A stretch of DNA of 64,000 bases from Prochlorococcus sp. AG-355-N16 (GCA_003278545.1 QCEF01000004.1:91194-155193), one strand, 5' to 3'. Shown: positions 36,402 through 64,000, counted from the first letter of the stretch. Numbers and translations: made by a program. The notes: generated from the letters alone by a model not told the origin.

Positions 36402-37571
36402 ATGAACGTAATTCAGGAAATTAATAATGTCAATGATAAATTTGCTACTCAAGGAAGCAAGCTTAAAATTGAAAAAAGAGGAGAGAAATTAAATATTCGT
36501 GGTTCACTACCCTCCAAAGAAGATAACAATAACTTTAAAATTCAAAGAATATCTCTTGGTTTAAAGGCTGATATTTCTGGATTAGAGGAGGCCAAAAAAA
36601 AATTACAATTAATCAATTTGCAATTGGAATTGAATCAATTTGATTGGATTAATTGGATAGGCAAACCATATAAAAAGGAAATAAAAGATGGTTTTGAATT
36701 CCCAAAAAGATTAAATCAATTTGAGGAATTTTTTTTTAAAGAAAATAAAAGTGATTTTCGAAACAGCACTAGAAAAACTACTTGGAGAAGTTCTTACAAA
36801 CCATATATGAAAAGAATCCTTAATATTTACAATGACTATGAAAATGAAGCTTTAGAAAAAGTATTTCAAAAAACACTTGAAAGTTATAAGGAAGGTACCA
36901 GAAGTAGGAAACAATGCGCTACTTCTTTAAGTGTTTTGGCTAAGTTTTTGGACATTAAACTACCAGAAGATTGGAAGTTAAATTCTAGGGGATATTCTCT
37001 GAACAAAGCAGGATTTAGGGATCTTCCTAAAGACGAATTAATAGAGAAACTGTGGGAGACTATACCAAACAAGTCTTGGAAATTTGTTTTTGGTCTGATG
37101 GCTACATATGGATTAAGGAATCATGAAGTATTTTTTTGTGATTTAAGTTCTCTTACTAATTTTGGGGACAAAATTATTAGAGTTTTACCTACGACTAAAA
37201 CTGGGGAACATCAAGTTTGGCCATTTCATCCTGAATGGGTGGAAAAGTTCGAATTATCAAAACTTGGAGAGAATCCAGAACTTCTACCAAATATTAATAG
37301 AGACCTTAAAATTACAACCCTACAGAATATTGGAAAAAAAATTACAGATCAGTTTAAGCGTTACTCTTTACAAATAAAACCTTATGATCTAAGACATGCT
37401 TGGGCAGTTAGAACAATTTTTTATGATTTACCTGATACTGTGGCTGCCAGAATGATGGGACATTCGGTTAGTTTACATACTCAAACTTATCACCACTGGA
37501 TTACTAAAAGAGATCAACAACAGGCAGTGAATAATTCACTTTTAAAAGTTAAAAGAGTTGAAAATATTTAG
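36402..37571 (+). CDS. Tyrosine recombinase/phage-integrase-family protein
   Basis: ATYGLRNHEVFF (box I R), LRHAWAVR (box II), MMGHSVSLHTQTYHHW (H and catalytic Y). Confidence 0.85.
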   Translation: MNVIQEINNVNDKFATQGSKLKIEKRGEKLNIRGSLPSKEDNNNFKIQRISLGLKADISGLEEAKKKLQLINLQLELNQFDWINWIGKPYKKEIKDGFEFPKRLNQFEEFFFKENKSDFRNSTRKTTWRSSYKPYMKRILNIYNDYENEALEKVFQKTLESYKEGTRSRKQCATSLSVLAKFLDIKLPEDWKLNSRGYSLNKAGFRDLPKDELIEKLWETIPNKSWKFVFGLMATYGLRNHEVFFCDLSSLTNFGDKIIRVLPTTKTGEHQVWPFHPEWVEKFELSKLGENPELLPNINRDLKITTLQNIGKKITDQFKRYSLQIKPYDLRHAWAVRTIFYDLPDTVAARMMGHSVSLHTQTYHHWITKRDQQQAVNNSLLKVKRVENI

Positions 37572-48031: not shown

Positions 48032-48670
48032 ATGTGCGGAAGATTTGAGCTGAAAACTAAATTTGAGAAGTTGCCAACGGCTTTGAAACAAGACTATCCA
48101 AGTAGACTTGATTCTAAATATGAGACTCAAAATCTAATAAGACCTAATGATCCTGTTCTTGTAATTAAAAACGAAGGAAGAATTAAAACTACTTTTATGA
48201 CATGGGGCTTTATTTCTCCTTGGGCCAGAGACCCATTTGATAACGAGAGCCCAAGACCATTTAATGCAAGATCAGAAACCGTAGAAGAAAAAAAATTATT
48301 TAGTGGAAGTTGGAAACATAAAAGGTGCCTAATACCTGCTAGCGGTTTTTTTGAAAAAAAATATCGTGTTCGAAAATCGAATTATGAGACTTTTTGGTTG
48401 GGAGGAATTTGGAGTAAGTGGATTTCACCAGATGGAGCAGAACTTGAGAGTTGCTGCGTTTTAACCACTGAACCAAATGACTTAATTAAACCTATACATC
48501 ACCGCATGCCTGTGATCGTTCCTAATGGATATGAGGAACAATGGACAGAGCAAGTTAAAGATGCAGATGAATTAAGAGGATTATTCGCAATCATGATAAG
48601 TTGGTCCCCTGATGGTTGGCTATTAGAGGATGTAAAGAAAAAAGAAACTGATCAAATGAGTTTGTTTTAA
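48032..48670 (+). CDS. SOS response-associated peptidase (SRAP/YedK/HMCES family)
   Basis: MCGRFELKTKF catalytic Cys2; PRPFNARSET; RCLIPASGFFEK; TTEPN...HHRMPVIV. Confidence 0.95.
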   Translation: MCGRFELKTKFEKLPTALKQDYPSRLDSKYETQNLIRPNDPVLVIKNEGRIKTTFMTWGFISPWARDPFDNESPRPFNARSETVEEKKLFSGSWKHKRCLIPASGFFEKKYRVRKSNYETFWLGGIWSKWISPDGAELESCCVLTTEPNDLIKPIHHRMPVIVPNGYEEQWTEQVKDADELRGLFAIMISWSPDGWLLEDVKKKETDQMSLF

Positions 48671-51538: not shown

Positions 51539-53173
51539 ATGTCGGAATTTATTAAAAAAAATATAAAAAAAGAGGAGGTTGTATATGGAAGTAAAGGTCA
51601 GAATTGGTCAAAAGAGTTTATTGAATATATGAATTTTATAGTTAGCCATAAAGAATATACTGGAATGCCTGATGCAATAAAAAATGATGGTAAAATCCAG
51701 TGGGAAGCACCATCTAACAGATCTAGTGGTCAATATCAATTTACTCATAATAAAAGAAAATCATGGTGGATTAAGAAAGCTAAGGAAATTGGTATAGATC
51801 CAGAGTCCAATCAATGGATAAGCAAAACAGCAAAGATTATTCACCCCACAGGTGAAAAACCTTGTAAGAAGTGTGGGAGAACTATGAAGTTGGCATATGT
51901 TTACCCAAAAAAGATATTGATAAATAGATTAATAAAGATATATAAAGATAAATATATATTTGATCAAAATGAACCTATTAACTTAATTTTTGAGAGGATA
52001 ATTACTGATTATGGCAAAGAGGTGCTAAAGGAAATTAATTTTTTATTATCATCTAAAAGTATAACAATTCCAAGTTTTGAAAATACTGATAGTTTTTTAA
52101 TTTGGCTAGAAAATCACTATTTAAAAACTGAATCTTCACTTTTAAGTCCTGGGGCCATGTCAAATGCTCCTGATAGATTTGATGGCTTTCATTCATTTAA
52201 TAAATGTTGTAGGGGGAAGGCAGATAAAGGAAGGAGCAAAGAAAATCTTAGTAAATATGTTACCGATAGGAGAGTTTTTGAGTTCTGGTCAGATGGGGAT
52301 TGGATTGCTGCTGACAAGTTAATGGGTATCATAAGATCTGAAATGAAATTTGAGAATTCAGCTGACGGAGGTGTCGGGAGTCCAACTGCTGATCATATTG
52401 GACCACTTTCACTAGGGTTTCGGCATATGCCAAAATTTCGTCTTCTAAGTCAATCAGCAAACTCAGCTAAAAATAATCGAATGAGTTTTGATGATGTTTT
52501 ATATCTTAGGGAACTAGAAAAAAGCATTCCGGTCACTTCATGGTACGCGAAATCATTGTGGGATCTTAGAAAAGAATCTGTAAGAAACGAAGAAAATGCT
52601 CTAAGGATTTCGAAAATGCTTAGAGATAATCAAAGATTGGCAATGAGAATATTATCAACCCTTTTCGAAAAATATCAAATACCTTTTTTAATTTATTTAC
52701 TAAATTTAGATTATGCAAATTATGACAATAATTTCTTGAACTTAAGAATAGATAATTATGTAACTGTTTATGACAAAGTTCTAAAGAAAGAAAGATCTAC
52801 AAAATATAGTATTGAACAGAAAATAAGGAGAATTAGGGTTGGGTTATCTGCATTAGAAAATTACATATCGAAAGAAAATAGACATTATCAAAATGATTTT
52901 GATGAAGAGGTAAAGAATGTTGTATATAAGTCAGAGGAATTACTTAATAGTTCAAATAATAATTACCAAAAATTTAAAATTGAGCTAAAGAAAATAATTT
53001 TCGAAAAAGACAATAAAAACTTAGAGAGTGATTTAAAAAAAATTATTCCAAATTTGGAAGAAAAAAAATTAGAAGATTTTGAGGCGGTAAAACAATTACT
53101 TAAGTCTTCAATGGATAAAATAGCTAAAAAGATCGCCAGCCAGTGGGGAAGTGAAAGATATGTAAGGGATTAA
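51539..53173 (+). CDS. Alw26I/Eco31I/Esp3I-like HNH type II(S) restriction endonuclease
   Basis: CKKCGRTMKLAYVYPKK zinc-finger-like motif; PTADHIGPLSLGFRHMPKFRLLSQSANSAKNNRMSFDD HNH-type core; adjacent m5C and N6A methyltransferases. Confidence 0.75.
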   Translation: MSEFIKKNIKKEEVVYGSKGQNWSKEFIEYMNFIVSHKEYTGMPDAIKNDGKIQWEAPSNRSSGQYQFTHNKRKSWWIKKAKEIGIDPESNQWISKTAKIIHPTGEKPCKKCGRTMKLAYVYPKKILINRLIKIYKDKYIFDQNEPINLIFERIITDYGKEVLKEINFLLSSKSITIPSFENTDSFLIWLENHYLKTESSLLSPGAMSNAPDRFDGFHSFNKCCRGKADKGRSKENLSKYVTDRRVFEFWSDGDWIAADKLMGIIRSEMKFENSADGGVGSPTADHIGPLSLGFRHMPKFRLLSQSANSAKNNRMSFDDVLYLRELEKSIPVTSWYAKSLWDLRKESVRNEENALRISKMLRDNQRLAMRILSTLFEKYQIPFLIYLLNLDYANYDNNFLNLRIDNYVTVYDKVLKKERSTKYSIEQKIRRIRVGLSALENYISKENRHYQNDFDEEVKNVVYKSEELLNSSNNNYQKFKIELKKIIFEKDNKNLESDLKKIIPNLEEKKLEDFEAVKQLLKSSMDKIAKKIASQWGSERYVRD

Positions 53174-53181
53174 GAGATGAT

Positions 53182-54369
53182 TTACTTTTGAAAAGTCTCA
53201 AGGTAATCCGATGGAGATAATATTGAACGCATAAACTTTTGATAAGTTGAGAGTTTTTGATCTTTATAAAATTTATGGGAACCATCTTCGCTGTGAAGAA
53301 TTTCAGGTAAATCAGAAATAGCCTCTTCGGAAGAAATTAATGGTTTTAAATAGGAAAATAATTGGTTTTTTTCTTGTTGAGAAGTTATTTGAGGAGGAAT
53401 AGAAATTTTTATATTCTTATTTTTATTACCTATAAGAAAAACCCTTTTTCTTTTTTGAGGTATGCCGTAACATTCAGAGGAAATCAACCAGTTATCAAAA
53501 TATGGCATTAATTTCATAAATTGTTTATTGACCTCACGGAATATTTCCCCATTCTTCATTGTTAAAAGGCCAGATACATTTTCAAAAAGAAATCCATCAG
53601 GAGATAGAGCCTTCACTAATTCACAATATCGATAAAAAAGATGATTCCTTGGATCGTCCATTGATCTTCTTTTACCTGCTGTTGAGAAACCTTGACAAGG
53701 TGGTCCCCCAAGAATCCAAAGAGGTTTATCAGGGAACTTTTTTCTGGCATTTTTAGCATTTTTTATAATCTCTTCAAAAACATCATTATTATTTATACTC
53801 CCATGAATTATTTGATTATGAATATTATAGGAATAACTATCTAAGAAGGATTTCTCTATATCATTAGCCACTATTGGTATCCAATTATTCCACTTAAATC
53901 CCAATCCAATGCCCCCAGCTCCCGAGAAAAGATCTATGAAAATCCCATTACTATTTTGTGCAAAACTTATTGATTTTGATATTTGGAAAGCTAATAATGG
54001 AGGGACAGCATTTCCAATCTGCATGTTTATTTGACGTTTCGATCCTTTAAATAAAAAATAATCAGGAAATGATTGAAATCTAGCAGCCTCTCTTTGGGAA
54101 ATTACTCGATTCTCTTTGTAGTGGATATTACATCCGTTCCCTGGTCTATTAAAGTAGGTATTTATTGTATAAGAGGGTTTACTAGGATTTAGTCGTCCAT
54201 AGTATGTTGATCTGCTACCCTCTCCACGAGCATAACTATCTCTAATAGTTTGCAGTCTCTTTGAAGGGATCTTAAGAGGAATATTTTTCCAATTACCTCC
54301 AATGGGGACATGAGAAATAATTTCAATATCAAGTTCACTCAATTTTGCTGAGTAATGATTGTTTATCAA
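53182..54369 (-). CDS. C5-cytosine DNA methyltransferase, circularly permuted motif order
   Basis: Motif IX (REAARFQSFPDYFLFKGS) and X (QIGNAVPPLLAFQI) precede motif I (IDLFSGAGGIGLGF), IV (GGPPCQGFS), VI (ENVSGL), VIII (QKRKRVFLIG). Confidence 0.92.
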   Translation of the reverse strand: MINNHYSAKLSELDIEIISHVPIGGNWKNIPLKIPSKRLQTIRDSYARGEGSRSTYYGRLNPSKPSYTINTYFNRPGNGCNIHYKENRVISQREAARFQSFPDYFLFKGSKRQINMQIGNAVPPLLAFQISKSISFAQNSNGIFIDLFSGAGGIGLGFKWNNWIPIVANDIEKSFLDSYSYNIHNQIIHGSINNNDVFEEIIKNAKNARKKFPDKPLWILGGPPCQGFSTAGKRRSMDDPRNHLFYRYCELVKALSPDGFLFENVSGLLTMKNGEIFREVNKQFMKLMPYFDNWLISSECYGIPQKRKRVFLIGNKNKNIKISIPPQITSQQEKNQLFSYLKPLISSEEAISDLPEILHSEDGSHKFYKDQKLSTYQKFMRSILSPSDYLETFQK

Positions 54370-54413
54370 TGCTCTACATTCATAAAATTAGAATTATTTT
54401 AATGGGTATATTT

Positions 54414-56063
54414 TTAATATTCTTGAATAAGTTTAATTTTGTCTTCTTCAGTATATTTTTCAAAACAATATAATATTTCTTTGAATTGTTCTTTAGTTAA
54501 ACCATAAATTTTTTTTGAGACATATATCTCAATTTGGTTTTCAAGGTTATGCTCACCTTTAATAACCCTATCGACAAGGTTAGCAAGATTCTTATGTTTA
54601 TTAATTTCATCAATATTAGGAATACATACTTTTCTTATGGATCCTAAAGATATATGCCCAGTAAATAAGTAACTTCTTAATTGAAATTCAAAACAAAAGG
54701 AGTTCATTATTCCTAATAAGGTTTTTAAAGTTGAATCATTTTCACTTGATATAGAAACAACTCCTAAAGAATTTCCTGCAATAATATCTGGTTCAACCAA
54801 AGTTGCAATCATTCTTCTTTTTTGATTTCTTCGAGAAATATCCCGCCAAATAATTCTCGTATATCTTGAACTTTTTGGGACTTTCAATTCCTTAGATATT
54901 CTTTTAAGGGAATTATTATTCTTTTCATATCTAGAAATATTTTTACCTTTTATAAACAAAGGACCATTGCCTTTGTCTTCTAACCAGTTTTTGCTACCTG
55001 TCTCATCTAATTCCCGCCCAGCCCAAAAAGTGGGTTTGTTATTTTTTTCTACATAGTGCCATGAAGGAAATTTATTGGAAATAAAATTAAGTAAATCTAT
55101 TCTTTTTTGCCCATAATTTACTGGAATAGTGTAATCAAATTTTAAAAATTGCTCTTTGGTTAATAGTATTTTCTCACGATAAATTAACTTGCATTTCTTA
55201 TCATAAATGCCTGAGAAAAATTGTTGATTTTTAACAACCTTTTTCTTGAAGAGACAAGATATCGCTCCAACATCCGCACCTATAAATAATTTGGACTCTG
55301 CAGGAAAACTATTTATTAAAAGTATTTCGTATGAATCAATAAAAGATTTTCTTAATTGATATGATTTTTGATCAGCCAAAAAAGATGGGGGTAAAACAAT
55401 ACCTATATAGCCATTATTAACAACTAAATTATGACATAATTCCAAACCAACTCTGGAAAGGTCTGTCCCCCAACCACCAAATTTAACTTTAGGTTTAGAG
55501 AGAGGAAATGTACGGTTTATAAAAGTATCATATGCCTTATATTCTTTGATTAAATCATCTTTCTTATTATCTTTGGCATCGGAAATCTTTATCCTACGAT
55601 CTGGTTTGATTACATACCATGGTGGATTTGTTAAAACAAAATCATATTTTTGAAAATTACTTTGGATTGTTTTTTTATATCTAGTAAAGGCGTCACTATG
55701 AATAATCTCAAAAGTAAGATTTTTTTTCTTCCTAAGCTCTAATAATTCTCTCTTTGCTTGATGTAAACCTATATCATTTATGTCCCATAGTGTTACTTCC
55801 CAAGATAAATTTTCAAAATTTCTTGTATTGGCTTCTTCAATTAGCCATTTAATGAGTCTTCCATCACCGCCAAAAGGGTCGATTATTTTAAGCCTTTTTT
55901 TTTGCCCAGGTTTTAAAGAAATTTGATTAATAAATTCATTAATTATCCCTCTTGCAGCAATTTTTGGGGTGTAATATTTTCCAAAAAATCGTTTTTCAAG
56001 ATTTGTAGATGTATTAGATATCTTATTAAAAATGTCTTCATTATTTAGCACTTTAAAACCCAA
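54414..56063 (-). CDS. N6-adenine DNA methyltransferase of the R-M cassette
   Basis: Motif I region IIDPFGGDGRLIKWL, motif IV FVLTNPPWYV; C-terminal specificity-type region (LLGIMNSFCFEFQLRS...HISLGSIRKVCIP). Confidence 0.88.
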   Translation of the reverse strand: MGFKVLNNEDIFNKISNTSTNLEKRFFGKYYTPKIAARGIINEFINQISLKPGQKKRLKIIDPFGGDGRLIKWLIEEANTRNFENLSWEVTLWDINDIGLHQAKRELLELRKKKNLTFEIIHSDAFTRYKKTIQSNFQKYDFVLTNPPWYVIKPDRRIKISDAKDNKKDDLIKEYKAYDTFINRTFPLSKPKVKFGGWGTDLSRVGLELCHNLVVNNGYIGIVLPPSFLADQKSYQLRKSFIDSYEILLINSFPAESKLFIGADVGAISCLFKKKVVKNQQFFSGIYDKKCKLIYREKILLTKEQFLKFDYTIPVNYGQKRIDLLNFISNKFPSWHYVEKNNKPTFWAGRELDETGSKNWLEDKGNGPLFIKGKNISRYEKNNNSLKRISKELKVPKSSRYTRIIWRDISRRNQKRRMIATLVEPDIIAGNSLGVVSISSENDSTLKTLLGIMNSFCFEFQLRSYLFTGHISLGSIRKVCIPNIDEINKHKNLANLVDRVIKGEHNLENQIEIYVSKKIYGLTKEQFKEILYCFEKYTEEDKIKLIQEY

Positions 56064-58340: not shown

Positions 58341-61300
58341 TTAAATATTACTGATTTTGCAAAATGTATTGATCAGTTCCGCATCCTTTATTGATTTAAC
58401 TAATGTAGAAGATAGATGATTGGAGCCGACTACTATTGATAGACATTTTGCCCTACTTATAGCAACATTAATTCTATTTGGTTGTAGTAAAAAATCTAAT
58501 CCTCTGGGGGCATCATGTCCACTACTAGCAGTTAAAGAAAAAATTGATATTGGGGCTTCTTGTCCTTGAAATTTATCAACAGTACTTATTCTTGCCTTAT
58601 CATTTAAATATTTTTTTAATAGGTTAACTTGGGCATTATAAGGCGCAATTACCAGAATATGTTTTTTAGTAATTTCTCCCGAGATTATATTAGATTTGGA
58701 GAAATACTCATATTTACTCCCATATAGCTTATCAACTATCTCTTTAATTTTAATAGCTTCTTCTTTTGATGATTGACTATTGCCAATATGTGGTACGTTT
58801 TCAAAATGAAATCCTTGACTTGGAATATAATTCCCATTCGATGATTGAATAGGATTTGTCAAAATTAGTTTATTTTTATTATTTTTTTCATTGCTTTTTA
58901 GTTTTCCTTCATAAAAAAGTTCAGAAACAATAGAGGTTATTGAAGGTTCCATTCTCCAACTTTTCCCTAAGAAAATCCCAAGATTTTCAGGAACTACTTT
59001 TTTATTATTTATCCAATATTCCAAACAAGATAAACCCCCACCAAATTGATGTTCTGCTTTAGTCGGTTGTGAAAGTTGTTGTTGATCTCCTAAAAGAATT
59101 ATAGATTTTGCACATCTCGAGATAACTGCCGTGTTAGCAAGAGACATCTGTCCAGCTTCTTCTATAACTAATAGATCATAATTGTTAATTGATTCTTCAG
59201 TTGAATGTGCCCAAGCTGTTCCTCCGACGATAGGCATTTCTTTTGTGATTTTTTTTGATTGAATTGTACTTATTGAATATTTATTTAGTTTATTTATTCT
59301 TTCGATTGATTTACTATTATCACTTTTTACTACTTTTAGATCTATAGATTTATCATTAGATATCTCTTTAATCTTTATTAGCAAGTTATCTATAGCTGGA
59401 TGACTATTAGCACAAATAGCAATTCTTTTATCCTTTAAAGCCAATCCGATTATTACTTCCGCTATTAATGTTGACTTCCCAGTTCCAGGCGGTCCTTGTA
59501 AAGCCAAAATAGTAGAAGTTTGATTTTTAATATATTCAGTTATTTGCTCTGCAAATCCAGAATTTGAATTTTTAAGATTGGTATTTAACTTAACTATTTC
59601 ATCATTCCCTCGCCTTTCTAATAAATTTTTAAGGGATTCTGGGACTGTTTCTTTATCCTTTATCCATGCTTCAGCTTGAGGAAATAATCTATCTATTAAT
59701 GTTATCCCAAGATCTCTCTCTCTTTTGAATAAAGAGCAATTTATTGGTAGCCCAGGAAAATCTTCTATTTCAAAATTTTTAATTTCTTTATTTTCCTTCT
59801 TCCATCTTTCACATTTTTTGTCTTGCTTCTTAAAACTTATTATTCCTTTATTATCATCTAATTTCTGAACATTAAGGCTTAAACCAGTCTGTTGTATTTC
59901 CATTTCTAATCCCCCATCTAAGAAATCAGATTGTAATTTTGAGTTTTGAGATGGTTCATACTTAAAATTATAAAGTAGCAATTCTTTATTTTTAATTAGA
60001 TCTTTTTTCTTATCTATGAAAATAGCTTCATGAATACATTCTGAATCTTTTTCTAATTCAAAAATATCAGCTCCTTTTCTATCAAAGTATCTCCACCACA
60101 AAGCTTTTGCTTCATTAGAGTGAAATCTCAATAATTGAGATAGAACTCTTTGTGATTTCCACGAGATTCCAAGTGGACCAATATGCGTAAGAGGATGATT
60201 TGGTTCATTAATAATATTTTCTTCATCAAGATTTCTTAATTTTTTTGGAATTTGAGTAAATAAAATATCACTTATTTTATTAATTTCATCATAAGCATTA
60301 GGTTCTTTATTTTCTGAAATTTTTTTATCAATTTTATTTTCAAAGAATAGATTAATTTTTTTATGTTGACCTTTTAAATTAAAGAGAAATCTATGTAATT
60401 CTTCTGTTGACTCGCAATCATCCTTATTATATTTTTCTATGTTTTGTAGAAGAGGACTCTCTTTTAATTCTTTTTTCTCCCCTGATTCTAGAAATCTTTG
60501 ATAAGCCACAACAGAATCTGCAGCATTAGTGATTTCTGTTTTTCTTTTTTCTCTATATAGTTTCTCTACTTTTTTTATGGAATAACTTTCTTCTCCAAGG
60601 AAAATTGCATTTTTAACTATTGGAAGAAGATCTATCAACAAACCATCTCTTAACCAATTATTTATTACCCCCACAGCATTTGAGTTTGGATGTTTTTGCT
60701 GCAGTTTTCTCATCGCATCTTTTTCATAATTTCCATAGTGATAAATATGCAGTTCTGGATAATTAATTCTTCTTTCTTCTACCCAAGTTGCCCATTGTTC
60801 GAAACTTTCTCCTTCTTCCTGATGATCATGAGCCCACCATTTTTCAAATTTAATTTTTCCATTTTTTGAATAACAGGCGCCAAAAAGATATTCAAGCTTT
60901 ATACCTGTTACAGAGTCATGAAAACCTTCCATATCAAACCAAATATCTCCATCATTTTTTAATGGAAGTATATTTTTGATATTGTTATTATCTTTCTTGA
61001 GCTCGGACCAAATGCGTGGCTCTAAATTTGGTCGATCATCGGTTAACTTTGGCAGGACTTGAACTTTAGATTGCTGATATAAGTTTCTTAAAGTGTCTTT
61101 TTTACTTATAAATATTTTGTTTTTTGATTTCAATGCTGCAAACTCATCTATTGTCTTAATGCCATTCTTAATTAGTTTACTTCTTTGAGATTGAGTCATA
61201 CCTGCCACAAGTATTAAATCTCTTTTTGTTTTAAGTTTCTCATTGACATAATCTGTCCATTTCCCATGGTCTCCGGGTGTTAAAAAAGGTTCAATTTGTT

Positions 61301-61892
61301 CATCGAAATTAGCTATAAAATCTTTATATCGTTTTTTCAATAAAGAGTACCAATTCCAATATTTTTTAGTTTCAAATTTTGCAAAATTCTTTCCTCCAAG
61401 ATAAAGTTCAAAGTAATTTGCTTTAATACCCTGAATAGATTCCAGCAAATCGCAATATGCACAAGATTGAATAATGAAGGTTGTTTTAGATTTAGATGAA
61501 AGCTTGCATTCAATTGGAATATAAGACCAATCTCCTAATCTAGAAGGCTTATTAGTTCGCTTTAATACATCTGCTGACCCTTTAATCTCTGAATTTTTTA
61601 GAGATCCCTGATAGATATATGCGACTTTTTTTTTCATAGAATTTATTGTTTCTTTAAATCTTTGATTAGCTGGAAAATCTCCTATATTTACAATATTATT
61701 ATTTTCATCTGCAAGGCTTTCTAAAAGAATTCTTTCATGTCTTTCCCCATCCTTAATTAATTGCTTTTCTAATTCAGATTTTGGAGGGATTTTTCCAGTA
61801 AATCTTTTTCTTATTACTAACTCCTCAAGCTGAGCAGCAAGTTCTGAAATTGCGAATAAAGATATTTGAGTTGGAGTGATTATTCTTTGCAT
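58341..61892 (-). CDS. TM0106-type RecB-like nuclease + RNase H-like domain + UPF1/DNA2-type SF1 helicase fusion
   Basis: RecB-like KGSADVL...YIPIECKLSSKSKTTFIIQSCAYCDLL; RNase H-like DIWFDMEGF...YHYGNYEKDAMRKL; helicase GPPGTGKST, IEEAGQMS, GDQQQLSQP, DKFQGQEAPISIFSL, NVAISRAK. Confidence 0.9.
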   Translation of the reverse strand: MQRIITPTQISLFAISELAAQLEELVIRKRFTGKIPPKSELEKQLIKDGERHERILLESLADENNNIVNIGDFPANQRFKETINSMKKKVAYIYQGSLKNSEIKGSADVLKRTNKPSRLGDWSYIPIECKLSSKSKTTFIIQSCAYCDLLESIQGIKANYFELYLGGKNFAKFETKKYWNWYSLLKKRYKDFIANFDEQIEPFLTPGDHGKWTDYVNEKLKTKRDLILVAGMTQSQRSKLIKNGIKTIDEFAALKSKNKIFISKKDTLRNLYQQSKVQVLPKLTDDRPNLEPRIWSELKKDNNNIKNILPLKNDGDIWFDMEGFHDSVTGIKLEYLFGACYSKNGKIKFEKWWAHDHQEEGESFEQWATWVEERRINYPELHIYHYGNYEKDAMRKLQQKHPNSNAVGVINNWLRDGLLIDLLPIVKNAIFLGEESYSIKKVEKLYREKRKTEITNAADSVVAYQRFLESGEKKELKESPLLQNIEKYNKDDCESTEELHRFLFNLKGQHKKINLFFENKIDKKISENKEPNAYDEINKISDILFTQIPKKLRNLDEENIINEPNHPLTHIGPLGISWKSQRVLSQLLRFHSNEAKALWWRYFDRKGADIFELEKDSECIHEAIFIDKKKDLIKNKELLLYNFKYEPSQNSKLQSDFLDGGLEMEIQQTGLSLNVQKLDDNKGIISFKKQDKKCERWKKENKEIKNFEIEDFPGLPINCSLFKRERDLGITLIDRLFPQAEAWIKDKETVPESLKNLLERRGNDEIVKLNTNLKNSNSGFAEQITEYIKNQTSTILALQGPPGTGKSTLIAEVIIGLALKDKRIAICANSHPAIDNLLIKIKEISNDKSIDLKVVKSDNSKSIERINKLNKYSISTIQSKKITKEMPIVGGTAWAHSTEESINNYDLLVIEEAGQMSLANTAVISRCAKSIILLGDQQQLSQPTKAEHQFGGGLSCLEYWINNKKVVPENLGIFLGKSWRMEPSITSIVSELFYEGKLKSNEKNNKNKLILTNPIQSSNGNYIPSQGFHFENVPHIGNSQSSKEEAIKIKEIVDKLYGSKYEYFSKSNIISGEITKKHILVIAPYNAQVNLLKKYLNDKARISTVDKFQGQEAPISIFSLTASSGHDAPRGLDFLLQPNRINVAISRAKCLSIVVGSNHLSSTLVKSIKDAELINTFCKISNI

Positions 61893-61905
61893 GTTTTTTA
61901 TAAGA

Positions 61906-63273
61906 TCAATCTTTTAATACCCAACCTTTTTTAATATTTGATTCTATTAAATTATTCGCAATTTTCTTTGCTTCTTCCATATTAATGGCTGTTTTTAATT
62001 TTTTATCAAGTGGTGACTTTCTCCCAGGACTATAGTCGGAATAAAAAACAATCCATTCAGGCCAGCTATCCCAAGTCTCAGATTTGAAAGTTTTCAATAT
62101 TATTATTTTCCTGATCGAAATTCCATTTTTAACATCTTTTGTCCAGACTTTTCTTTCTATTAATTTACTTTTTGGTAATTGAATTTGTTTTATTTTTTCT
62201 TCCAATTTCTTTGAATCTAAAAAAAATTCTATTTGGGATATTCTTACATCTGATTCATCGGCAAGTTTGTCATGTCTCTCACGAATTACTACAGGGTGGA
62301 TTAAGCTAACACATTCTGAAAGTGCGAGGGGTTGCCAAATATTATCTTTAAAATCTAAAACCATTCGCTTAATACTATTTGCGTTGCTATCTTCACACTG
62401 GATTTCAGTACTCTTTATCTCTAAAACTATTTCTGGCCTAACAAAACGATAAAGATTTCCGTCACTGCTTGAATGTCTGAATTTACTTTCACATTCAATA
62501 CTTACTAGCTTTTTATATAGATCTTCTTTTAAAGATCCTAAAAAATTGCCGCAGGCTCCAATTAATTGAATTTTATCGTCCTTTCTCTTTAATCCAAGTA
62601 AAACAGATCTTACTTTGCCTGATTCATTAACTTTATCTGTAAATCCAACTATCAATGCATCTATAGATATTGATGGCTTTACTTTATATATTATTTCACT
62701 CCCTGTACGAATAATTATCCCTTCAGCATTTTCTTTATTGACACATTTTTCGTAAAAATCTTTAATAGAATTTTTATCACTAATTTCTTCCGTCTCAATA
62801 ACTTTTAAATTACTTTTTGGTGTCTTAAAAATTGCTTGAAGTTCTTCTAATCTTTTTTCATAGTTTAAAGAAAGTATTTTGCCTTCAATTTTTACTAAAT
62901 CGAAAATAGCAAAAGATAAATTATTTAAGTCATTTTCAGAAATAGCTTTAGAAACATCACCAACTCTCTCTCTAGTTTCTTTTTTGATATGTAATTCACC
63001 TGCAACAATTAAATTTGTCACATTATAAGGCAAACAACCTCTTAGAGATTCTATTATTTTGCCTTCTTTTATAAATCTATCACCTTTAGCAAATAACGTT
63101 ACTCCCTCTTTATCGATGTGAGCCATCCATAACTCACCATCAATTTTTTTGCTAACAAAATTTTTCCCAGAGGTTACTGAGCTTATTTCATCAGGTTTTA
63201 ATGGGCGATATTTTGAAGCTACTGCGCATTTATATTGTTTTGCAATTGATTCGAAATTTATTACTTTTTTCAT
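61906..63273 (-). CDS. ATP-dependent DNA-ligase-like nucleotidyltransferase
   Basis: Motif I VSKKIDGELW (KxDGE), Ia-like FAKGDRF, motif III LSFAIFDLV, motif IV EGIIIRT, motif V YKVKPSISIDALIVGF. Confidence 0.85.
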   Translation of the reverse strand: MKKVINFESIAKQYKCAVASKYRPLKPDEISSVTSGKNFVSKKIDGELWMAHIDKEGVTLFAKGDRFIKEGKIIESLRGCLPYNVTNLIVAGELHIKKETRERVGDVSKAISENDLNNLSFAIFDLVKIEGKILSLNYEKRLEELQAIFKTPKSNLKVIETEEISDKNSIKDFYEKCVNKENAEGIIIRTGSEIIYKVKPSISIDALIVGFTDKVNESGKVRSVLLGLKRKDDKIQLIGACGNFLGSLKEDLYKKLVSIECESKFRHSSSDGNLYRFVRPEIVLEIKSTEIQCEDSNANSIKRMVLDFKDNIWQPLALSECVSLIHPVVIRERHDKLADESDVRISQIEFFLDSKKLEEKIKQIQLPKSKLIERKVWTKDVKNGISIRKIIILKTFKSETWDSWPEWIVFYSDYSPGRKSPLDKKLKTAINMEEAKKIANNLIESNIKKGWVLKD

Positions 63274-63965
63274 GAAGTTAATGTTTTAAGTTCTAAGTTA
63301 GCCAAACGCATTAATAATGCATACGAGTCATCTTTAACACGACCTTCAAGAAAAGCCCTCCAAGGTAATCCATTATTTTGAAAAATTAAGGGATCCCTTC
63401 CTTTCTCTCCACTTCCAACTAGCATCATTTCATCGTTTTCATCTAATTCCTTTGCAATATTAAAGAGAAATTCAAAAGTTAAACCATCTGAGTGCCAAAG
63501 TTGGAGAGTCCTGCTAAAAACAAATTTTCTTACAGCATCTTTTCTTTTTAATTTTAATTTGGTAAATCTTATTGGTAGTTCATCAGTTATATTTGATAAT
63601 TTATCTTCTGGGATTCTCCTCTCTTTTTCATAACCATCCTTGTCAAATATTAATTCAATCCAATTAGGTGCTGTTTTCATGATTTCATTTTTTTTATTTA
63701 TAAAAACAGTATTTGTTTTTTCAATAGGCCTACCAATTAACTCTGTATCCAATTCGGGGTCTTCATCTATTAATTTTTGAGGCAGCTTATCTTTATATCT
63801 CGATAAAAGACTTTCATAATCATTATTTTCTCCAGAGACCAAAAGCCTTTTTGAAAAAACTTTTTCTTTGCCAAAAGCTCTAAAAAAATTTTTGGGACAT
63901 TTTATTGGTACAAAATGTACGAATGTATTTTTTGAATTTGAATCTGATATGTGTATTTTTCTCAT
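63270..63965 (-). CDS. Unknown 231-aa protein, operon partner of ligase and helicase-nuclease
   Basis: Overlaps the ligase start by 4 bp; no family recognised by eye. Confidence 0.75.
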   Translation of the reverse strand: MRKIHISDSNSKNTFVHFVPIKCPKNFFRAFGKEKVFSKRLLVSGENNDYESLLSRYKDKLPQKLIDEDPELDTELIGRPIEKTNTVFINKKNEIMKTAPNWIELIFDKDGYEKERRIPEDKLSNITDELPIRFTKLKLKRKDAVRKFVFSRTLQLWHSDGLTFEFLFNIAKELDENDEMMLVGSGEKGRDPLIFQNNGLPWRAFLEGRVKDDSYALLMRLANLELKTLTS

Positions 63966-63967
63966 TT

Positions 63968-64000
63968 TTAAAACATTTCAAAATCTAATTCATCTTCATC
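63968..64000 (-). CDS. C-terminus of a further upstream gene, truncated by window edge
   Basis: Open frame reading ...DEDELDFEMF*, stop 2 nt before the ATG of the 231-aa gene. Confidence 0.5.
   Translation of the reverse strand, partial: DEDELDFEMF

Follow-up and report, generated by a model that had tools for sequence, protein, structure and literature searches.

Non-homologous end joining (NHEJ) in bacteria has been described with a homodimer of Ku. The functions of LigD, the ligase of the Ku-LigD system, are listed as polymerase, phosphoesterase and ligase (POL-PE-LIG; PMC8656161). Here we describe an operon at the right-hand end of a 64,000-nt stretch of DNA (the window; positions 91194-155193 of contig 4, QCEF01000004.1, of Prochlorococcus sp. 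AG-355-N16), in which two small proteins, A and B, are encoded together with an ATP-dependent DNA ligase and a large nuclease-helicase. We read A, B and the ligase as a Ku-like, NHEJ-type operon for the joining of double-strand-break ends, equipped with swappable end-processing enzymes, and give this reading a probability of about 0.68. What would be new here is an NHEJ-like operon that fails the Ku sequence test; a search of the open-licence literature returned no description of this gene set. Loci are numbered with L and genomes with G, G000 being the window's own genome.

All four genes lie on the minus strand and are transcribed in the order A, B, ligase, helicase. Gene A, an open reading frame (ORF) of 199 amino acids (aa) completed by extension along the contig, has its last 33 nt in the window (63968-64000) and reaches window-equivalent position 64567 (L004:5162-5761). 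It is followed by B (63270-63965; 231 aa, without known family, called from its ORF and an alignment of homologues), the ligase (61906-63273; 455 aa) and the nuclease-helicase (58341-61892; 1183 aa). Two nucleotides separate A from B, B shares 4 bp with the ligase, and the helicase begins 13 nt after the ligase. A sequence-only reading of the window had proposed three minus-strand ORFs in tight series, and ORF calls bore out their coordinates and sizes; its 4-bp overlap and 2-nt gap also stood, but not the 12 nt that it gave between ligase and helicase. The further gene ending DEDELDFEMF that it placed beyond the window proved to be gene A (63968-64567), and the 231-aa ORF that it took for a real gene is coding and under purifying selection, with a ratio of nonsynonymous to synonymous substitution (dN/dS) of ~0.1 between Prochlorococcus copies. 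A single operon with a dedicated ATP-dependent ligase was likewise borne out. The view that such a ligase is unexpected in this genome did not hold, as two further ATP-dependent ligases are encoded there, on contig 22 (L006) and contig 1 (L005:6104-7432).

Neither A nor B found a match in Pfam, NCBIfam, PHROGs, PADLOC or the PDB sequence profiles, with every member of both families tried against Pfam. An AlphaFold2 model of A built from a six-sequence alignment (mean pLDDT 63; residues 1-20 and ~90-170 confident) points to Ku. Compared with PDB structures by Foldseek, the model returned Ku or Ku-complex chains as all 50 of the matches listed (top probability 1.00), with M. tuberculosis Ku (E 7.5e-5) and B. 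subtilis Ku (E 4e-4) ranked ahead of eukaryotic Ku70/80 entries. Against viral models there were two significant matches, both annotated Ku (E 4.7e-5 and 3.9e-4), and the third-ranked match dropped to E 0.08 and probability 0.10. Such apparent specificity for Ku alone in two independent libraries would be hard to get by chance. Furthermore, the order of the confident elements of the model (N-terminal hairpin, strand, helix, three strands) agrees with that in the Ku barrel. The structure model of B is poor and gave zero Foldseek matches, so that it may serve as a rough specificity control for the Ku matches of A.

Several observations weigh against assigning A to Ku. The model is moderate, and its residues 22-78 and its tail are unreliable, which makes the root-mean-square deviation of the superpositions large; TM-scores with Ku are only ~0.4. 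The Pfam Ku model (PF02735) matches zero members of the A or B families, and in hhalign neither A nor B scored better against 30 bacterial Ku sequences than with columns shuffled; the ligase profile likewise gave no significant score against Ku. In one hhalign run the best A-Ku profile path was collinear across nearly the whole length, yet not significant. In addition, A has only 199 aa, fewer than is usual for Ku, and its C-terminal tail, which ends in [DS]F-x-[ML]-[FLM] in all 19 A sequences (DELDFEMF in the window copy), is acidic, whereas the C-terminal tails of bacterial Ku have been described as basic (PMC9638933). Because sequence profiles do not confirm homology, we call A Ku-like by predicted fold, on one moderate-confidence model, without placing it in the Ku family.

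Protein B, which accompanies A throughout, must matter, and it may act as a second end-binding subunit or as a ligase adaptor. We suggest only tentatively, and with some leaning against it, that A and B assemble into a two-subunit Ku ring, and that this ring works within a modular end-joining kit in which lineages have exchanged the processing enzyme. The profiles of A and B were also compared with each other; 5 of 60 and 5 of 100 shuffles reached their score, a weak excess that does not suffice to call the two paralogues. A Ruminococcus match (L016) covered 47 residues only and was judged spurious.

The ligase is an intact enzyme by its motifs. It carries the Pfam domains DNA_ligase_A_M (E 2.9e-15) and DNA_ligase_A_C (E 4.5e-8) in a build of nucleotidyltransferase domain, OB domain and a C-terminal region of ~100 aa without domain assignment, and the motifs KxDG, E, EG, KxK and RxDK are kept in 19 homologues; the sequence-only reading had listed motifs I, III, IV and V. 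In NCBIfam it scores best against TIGR02779, the NHEJ ligase domain (E 7.9e-19, under the cut-off of that model); LigD models score far under cut-off, and the ligase is a separate protein. A WGR-type C-terminal domain suspected by eye received no support from Pfam. Queries with the ligase against plasmids and phages returned general ligases only. No metallo-beta-lactamase-like exonuclease gene lies beside the operon ligase; a separate cluster of that kind is present on contig 22 of G000, where the L006 ligase belongs to an exonuclease-ligase-helicase cluster cut off by the contig end.

The gene set recurs well beyond the window. A, B and the ligase are all present in 18 further loci from two phyla, in the order A-B-ligase in 17 of them, which counters the idea of a chance grouping. 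The carriers are Prochlorococcus (contigs L012, L013 and L014), three Synechococcus-type genomes, in which the core proteins are 43-55% identical, four larger cyanobacteria, and Acidobacteriota (four genomes related to the Pyrinomonadaceae metagenome-assembled genome L015, three loci of another class, and G816). Acidobacteriota A is ~24-28% identical to the window copy (tblastn), and dN/dS values of ~0.1-0.2 between Prochlorococcus copies indicate purifying selection on A, B and the ligase. There is variation: L015 itself has B and the ligase only, A lies on the opposite strand with intervening genes in L037, B and the ligase are ~3.7 kb apart in L094, and the contig of L091 ends inside the ligase. 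What is conserved as a unit is the triad of A, B and ligase rather than the ligase with the helicase, which corrects the sequence-only reading. The operon is rare and patchy: among 201 genomes of the family four have B, and among 299 of the order six have the ligase. The ~11.6-Mb genome G919 carries three separate triad copies on three contigs (L090, L091 and L092). Remnants of A and the ligase surround an intact B at L030:8448-9869, B is split by a frame change at L096:8273-8985, and a frame change that may be a sequencing error splits A at L014:30-630.

What lies beside the triad differs between lineages. Directly 3' of the ligase in five Acidobacteriota loci of the L015 group (L037, L038, L039, L040 and that of G618) is a gene for a primase-polymerase of the archaeo-eukaryotic primase (AEP) type with a C-terminal HAD-like domain. 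In G618 the ligase contig ends 32 nt past the ligase, within the start of the AEP gene, and its last 18 bases are the start of the contig that carries the rest of that gene. PF22548, the TOTE-type primase family, is over cut-off in three of the five copies and just under it in the other two, and the four copies checked contain the AEP motifs DxD and SNGxGGxHV as well as readable HAD motifs DLD[GA]VL and DDRA. LigD_Prim-Pol reached only E 0.07, in one AEP gene, and PF22548 had no match in the window's genome. Ligase and AEP-HAD gene together resemble a LigD split into separate proteins. Genes with SocA/Panacea antitoxin domains adjoin the operon at L037:5907-6710 and L038:4101-4940.

The fourth gene of the Prochlorococcus operon encodes a TM0106-family protein (TIGR03491, 198 bits against a curated cut-off of 97) that also matches RNase_H_2, AAA_11 and AAA_12; nuclease and superfamily 1 (SF1) helicase motifs were located in it, and its helicase part resembles the solved UPF1 and Dna2 structures. 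The fusion of RecB-type nuclease, RNase H-like domain and SF1 helicase seen in the sequence-only reading is thereby confirmed. Two types of this helicase exist among the Prochlorococcus copies, with 72-74% identity inside each type and 48-50% across the two. In its core, L012 is nearest to L013 (82-91%), whereas its helicase groups with that of L014; the fourth gene has therefore been exchanged relative to the core. In the Prochlorococcus version we regard the TM0106 helicase as an accessory module for end processing, outside the conserved core. Stand-alone BRCT ORFs, found just upstream of A in three Synechococcus-type loci (L017:10864-11151, L018:63-377 and L026:8225-8521) and 1.5 kb upstream of A in L013 (L013:6613-6891), are possibly a further accessory part.

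From the gene content and order, their conservation, the intact ligase motifs and the predicted Ku fold of A, we infer a scheme of end binding, ligase recruitment and joining, with a part in it for B. Broken DNA ends would be gripped by the Ku-like fold of A, acting by itself or in a two-subunit ring with B. The ligase would then be recruited, possibly via the acidic DFxM tail of A or via its own extra C-terminal region, and would seal the ends. Ends that are not directly sealable would be prepared by the accessory enzyme encoded beside the triad, which in Acidobacteriota would be the primase-type polymerase with its HAD-like (probable phosphatase) domain and in Prochlorococcus the TM0106 RecB nuclease/RNase H/SF1 helicase. 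A Ku-like A and a dedicated ligase, joined in one lineage by a polymerase with a HAD-like domain, together cover the functions of Ku plus LigD, and end joining is the simplest reading. Conventional Ku (PF02735) was found in none of the 13 carrier genomes tested and in none of 299 genomes of the window's order; template-free break repair would therefore be taken as absent there. Among Acidobacteriota, it is absent from all six carriers tested and present in 34 of 119 sampled genomes of the phylum, although six carriers are too few to establish that the two exclude each other.

The alternative that survives best, if still an unlikely one, is anti-phage defence, in which the TM0106 nuclease-helicase would attack invading DNA, with the ligase, A and B there to protect host DNA or to reseal it. 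The patchy distribution and a variable fourth gene, typical of defence loci, speak for it, and so does the company of the Prochlorococcus copies. Next to the window copy, at 51539-56063, is a restriction-modification set of the Alw26I/Eco31I/Esp3I type (type IIS). The set is complete, with a 544-aa endonuclease (TIGR02986) and a 549-aa adenine methyltransferase (TIGR02987), both scoring over cut-off, and a 395-aa C5-cytosine methyltransferase, apparently a circular permutation in which late motifs come before motif I. Directly 3' of the helicase in L014 (L014:6258-10327) are a GHKL-type ATPase (HATPase_c_3) and a probable Z1-type protein, a pair that resembles an MZA-like defence locus; upstream of A in L012 (L012:805-7195) are a probable Vsr-type endonuclease, a 686-aa C5-methyltransferase fusion and three uncharacterised genes, one of them encoding 654 aa without Pfam match. 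Because these neighbours are restriction-modification, GHKL/Z1 and C5-methyltransferase/Vsr genes, Prochlorococcus is seen to keep the operon in variable islands. A SRAP (HMCES/YedK-type) gene lies at 48032-48670, a few kb away from the type IIS set, and a tyrosine-recombinase-like gene of 389 aa at 36402-37571; no tRNA genes were found within the whole window.

Against defence, copies outside Prochlorococcus lack neighbours of this kind; the larger cyanobacteria carry the triad without the nuclease, flanked by ordinary genes, and recB- and recC-like genes divergently adjoin A in two Acidobacteriota copies, in G816 (L041:3-7301) and G918 (L089:10620-17203), with a recD-like gene also in L041 (these genes were recognised by reading, not by family search). 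Polymerase motifs in a fourth gene fit repair more naturally than defence. A and B had zero matches in the viral collections searched, and B also had none in plasmids. PADLOC, furthermore, gave zero matches for A, B or the ligase, in line with the earlier statement that the set is no catalogued system, and for the TM0106 protein only shared helicase-domain and nuclease-domain matches. We favour repair, and regard a part in defence, for instance the rejoining of DNA cut by restriction enzymes or phages, as less probable; of the break-processing or anti-phage module first suggested, the former half has gained support and the latter has found no direct support.

In SSB and gp32 the C-terminal tail is acidic and closes with a hydrophobic residue. 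The tail of A has this character in 19 of 19 sequences, and helicase, RecBC-like and primase-type neighbours would suit a role in single-strand-break or gap repair or recombination, with an SSB- or gp32-like A whose tail recruits the ligase and the helicase or primase. We consider this improbable, since the PDB matches listed for A contain Ku and no SSB or OB-fold protein and the significant viral matches are Ku only. Still less credible is that the helicase is an unrelated neighbour and that the four genes share an island by chance. Its family is common on plasmids, usually without A, B and ligase, and it was not detected beside the triad in loci outside Prochlorococcus; however, it lies 3' of the ligase in all four Prochlorococcus loci, in differing chromosomal surroundings and as two helicase types, and such a coincidence would leave the triad itself untouched. 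That the ligase acts on RNA rather than DNA, as a weak Pfam RNA_ligase match below cut-off might suggest, is least credible of all given a DNA_ligase_A_C match over cut-off, a retained RxDK motif and DNA-repair-type neighbours.

If the end-joining reading is true, Ku/LigD surveys would understate both the spread and the modularity of end joining, which would have a Ku-type form invisible to sequence search, and such a system would move by horizontal transfer into the streamlined genomes of the ocean. Its separate subunits, a compact set, would also let end binding, processing and sealing be studied singly, and if B is a second Ku-type subunit, the operon would bear on the origin of two-subunit Ku.

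Among described systems, the exonuclease-ATP ligase-helicase cluster of the ligase-associated DNA damage response likewise combines ATP-dependent ligase, nuclease and helicase genes, but it has its own ligase, a metallo-beta-lactamase-like exonuclease and another helicase, and lacks A and B. The fourth genes belong to known families as well. That of Prochlorococcus is by score a full member of the TM0106 family (TIGR03491), whose members usually occur without A, B and ligase, for example on plasmids. The AEP domain of the Acidobacteriota gene matches the TOTE-type primases (PF22548), from which this gene differs in carrying a HAD-like domain and in sitting 3' of the triad. Eukaryotic Ku70/80 with DNA ligase IV is closer: Ku70/80 is among the fold matches of A, there are possibly two different Ku-type subunits, and the accessory polymerase and nuclease are separate proteins; the operon is, however, bacterial, without vWA or SAP domains, and its B has no sequence match to Ku. 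From bacterial Ku-LigD the operon differs in that A is unmatched by the Ku model and has an acidic instead of a basic tail, in a second protein, B, that is always present, in the distribution of activities over separate proteins, in a HAD-like domain where LigD has a phosphoesterase, and in an exchangeable fourth gene. With it the operon shares the predicted Ku fold of A, a dedicated ATP-dependent ligase encoded with A in nearly all loci and, in the Acidobacteriota version, an AEP-type polymerase joined to a possible end-cleaning domain.

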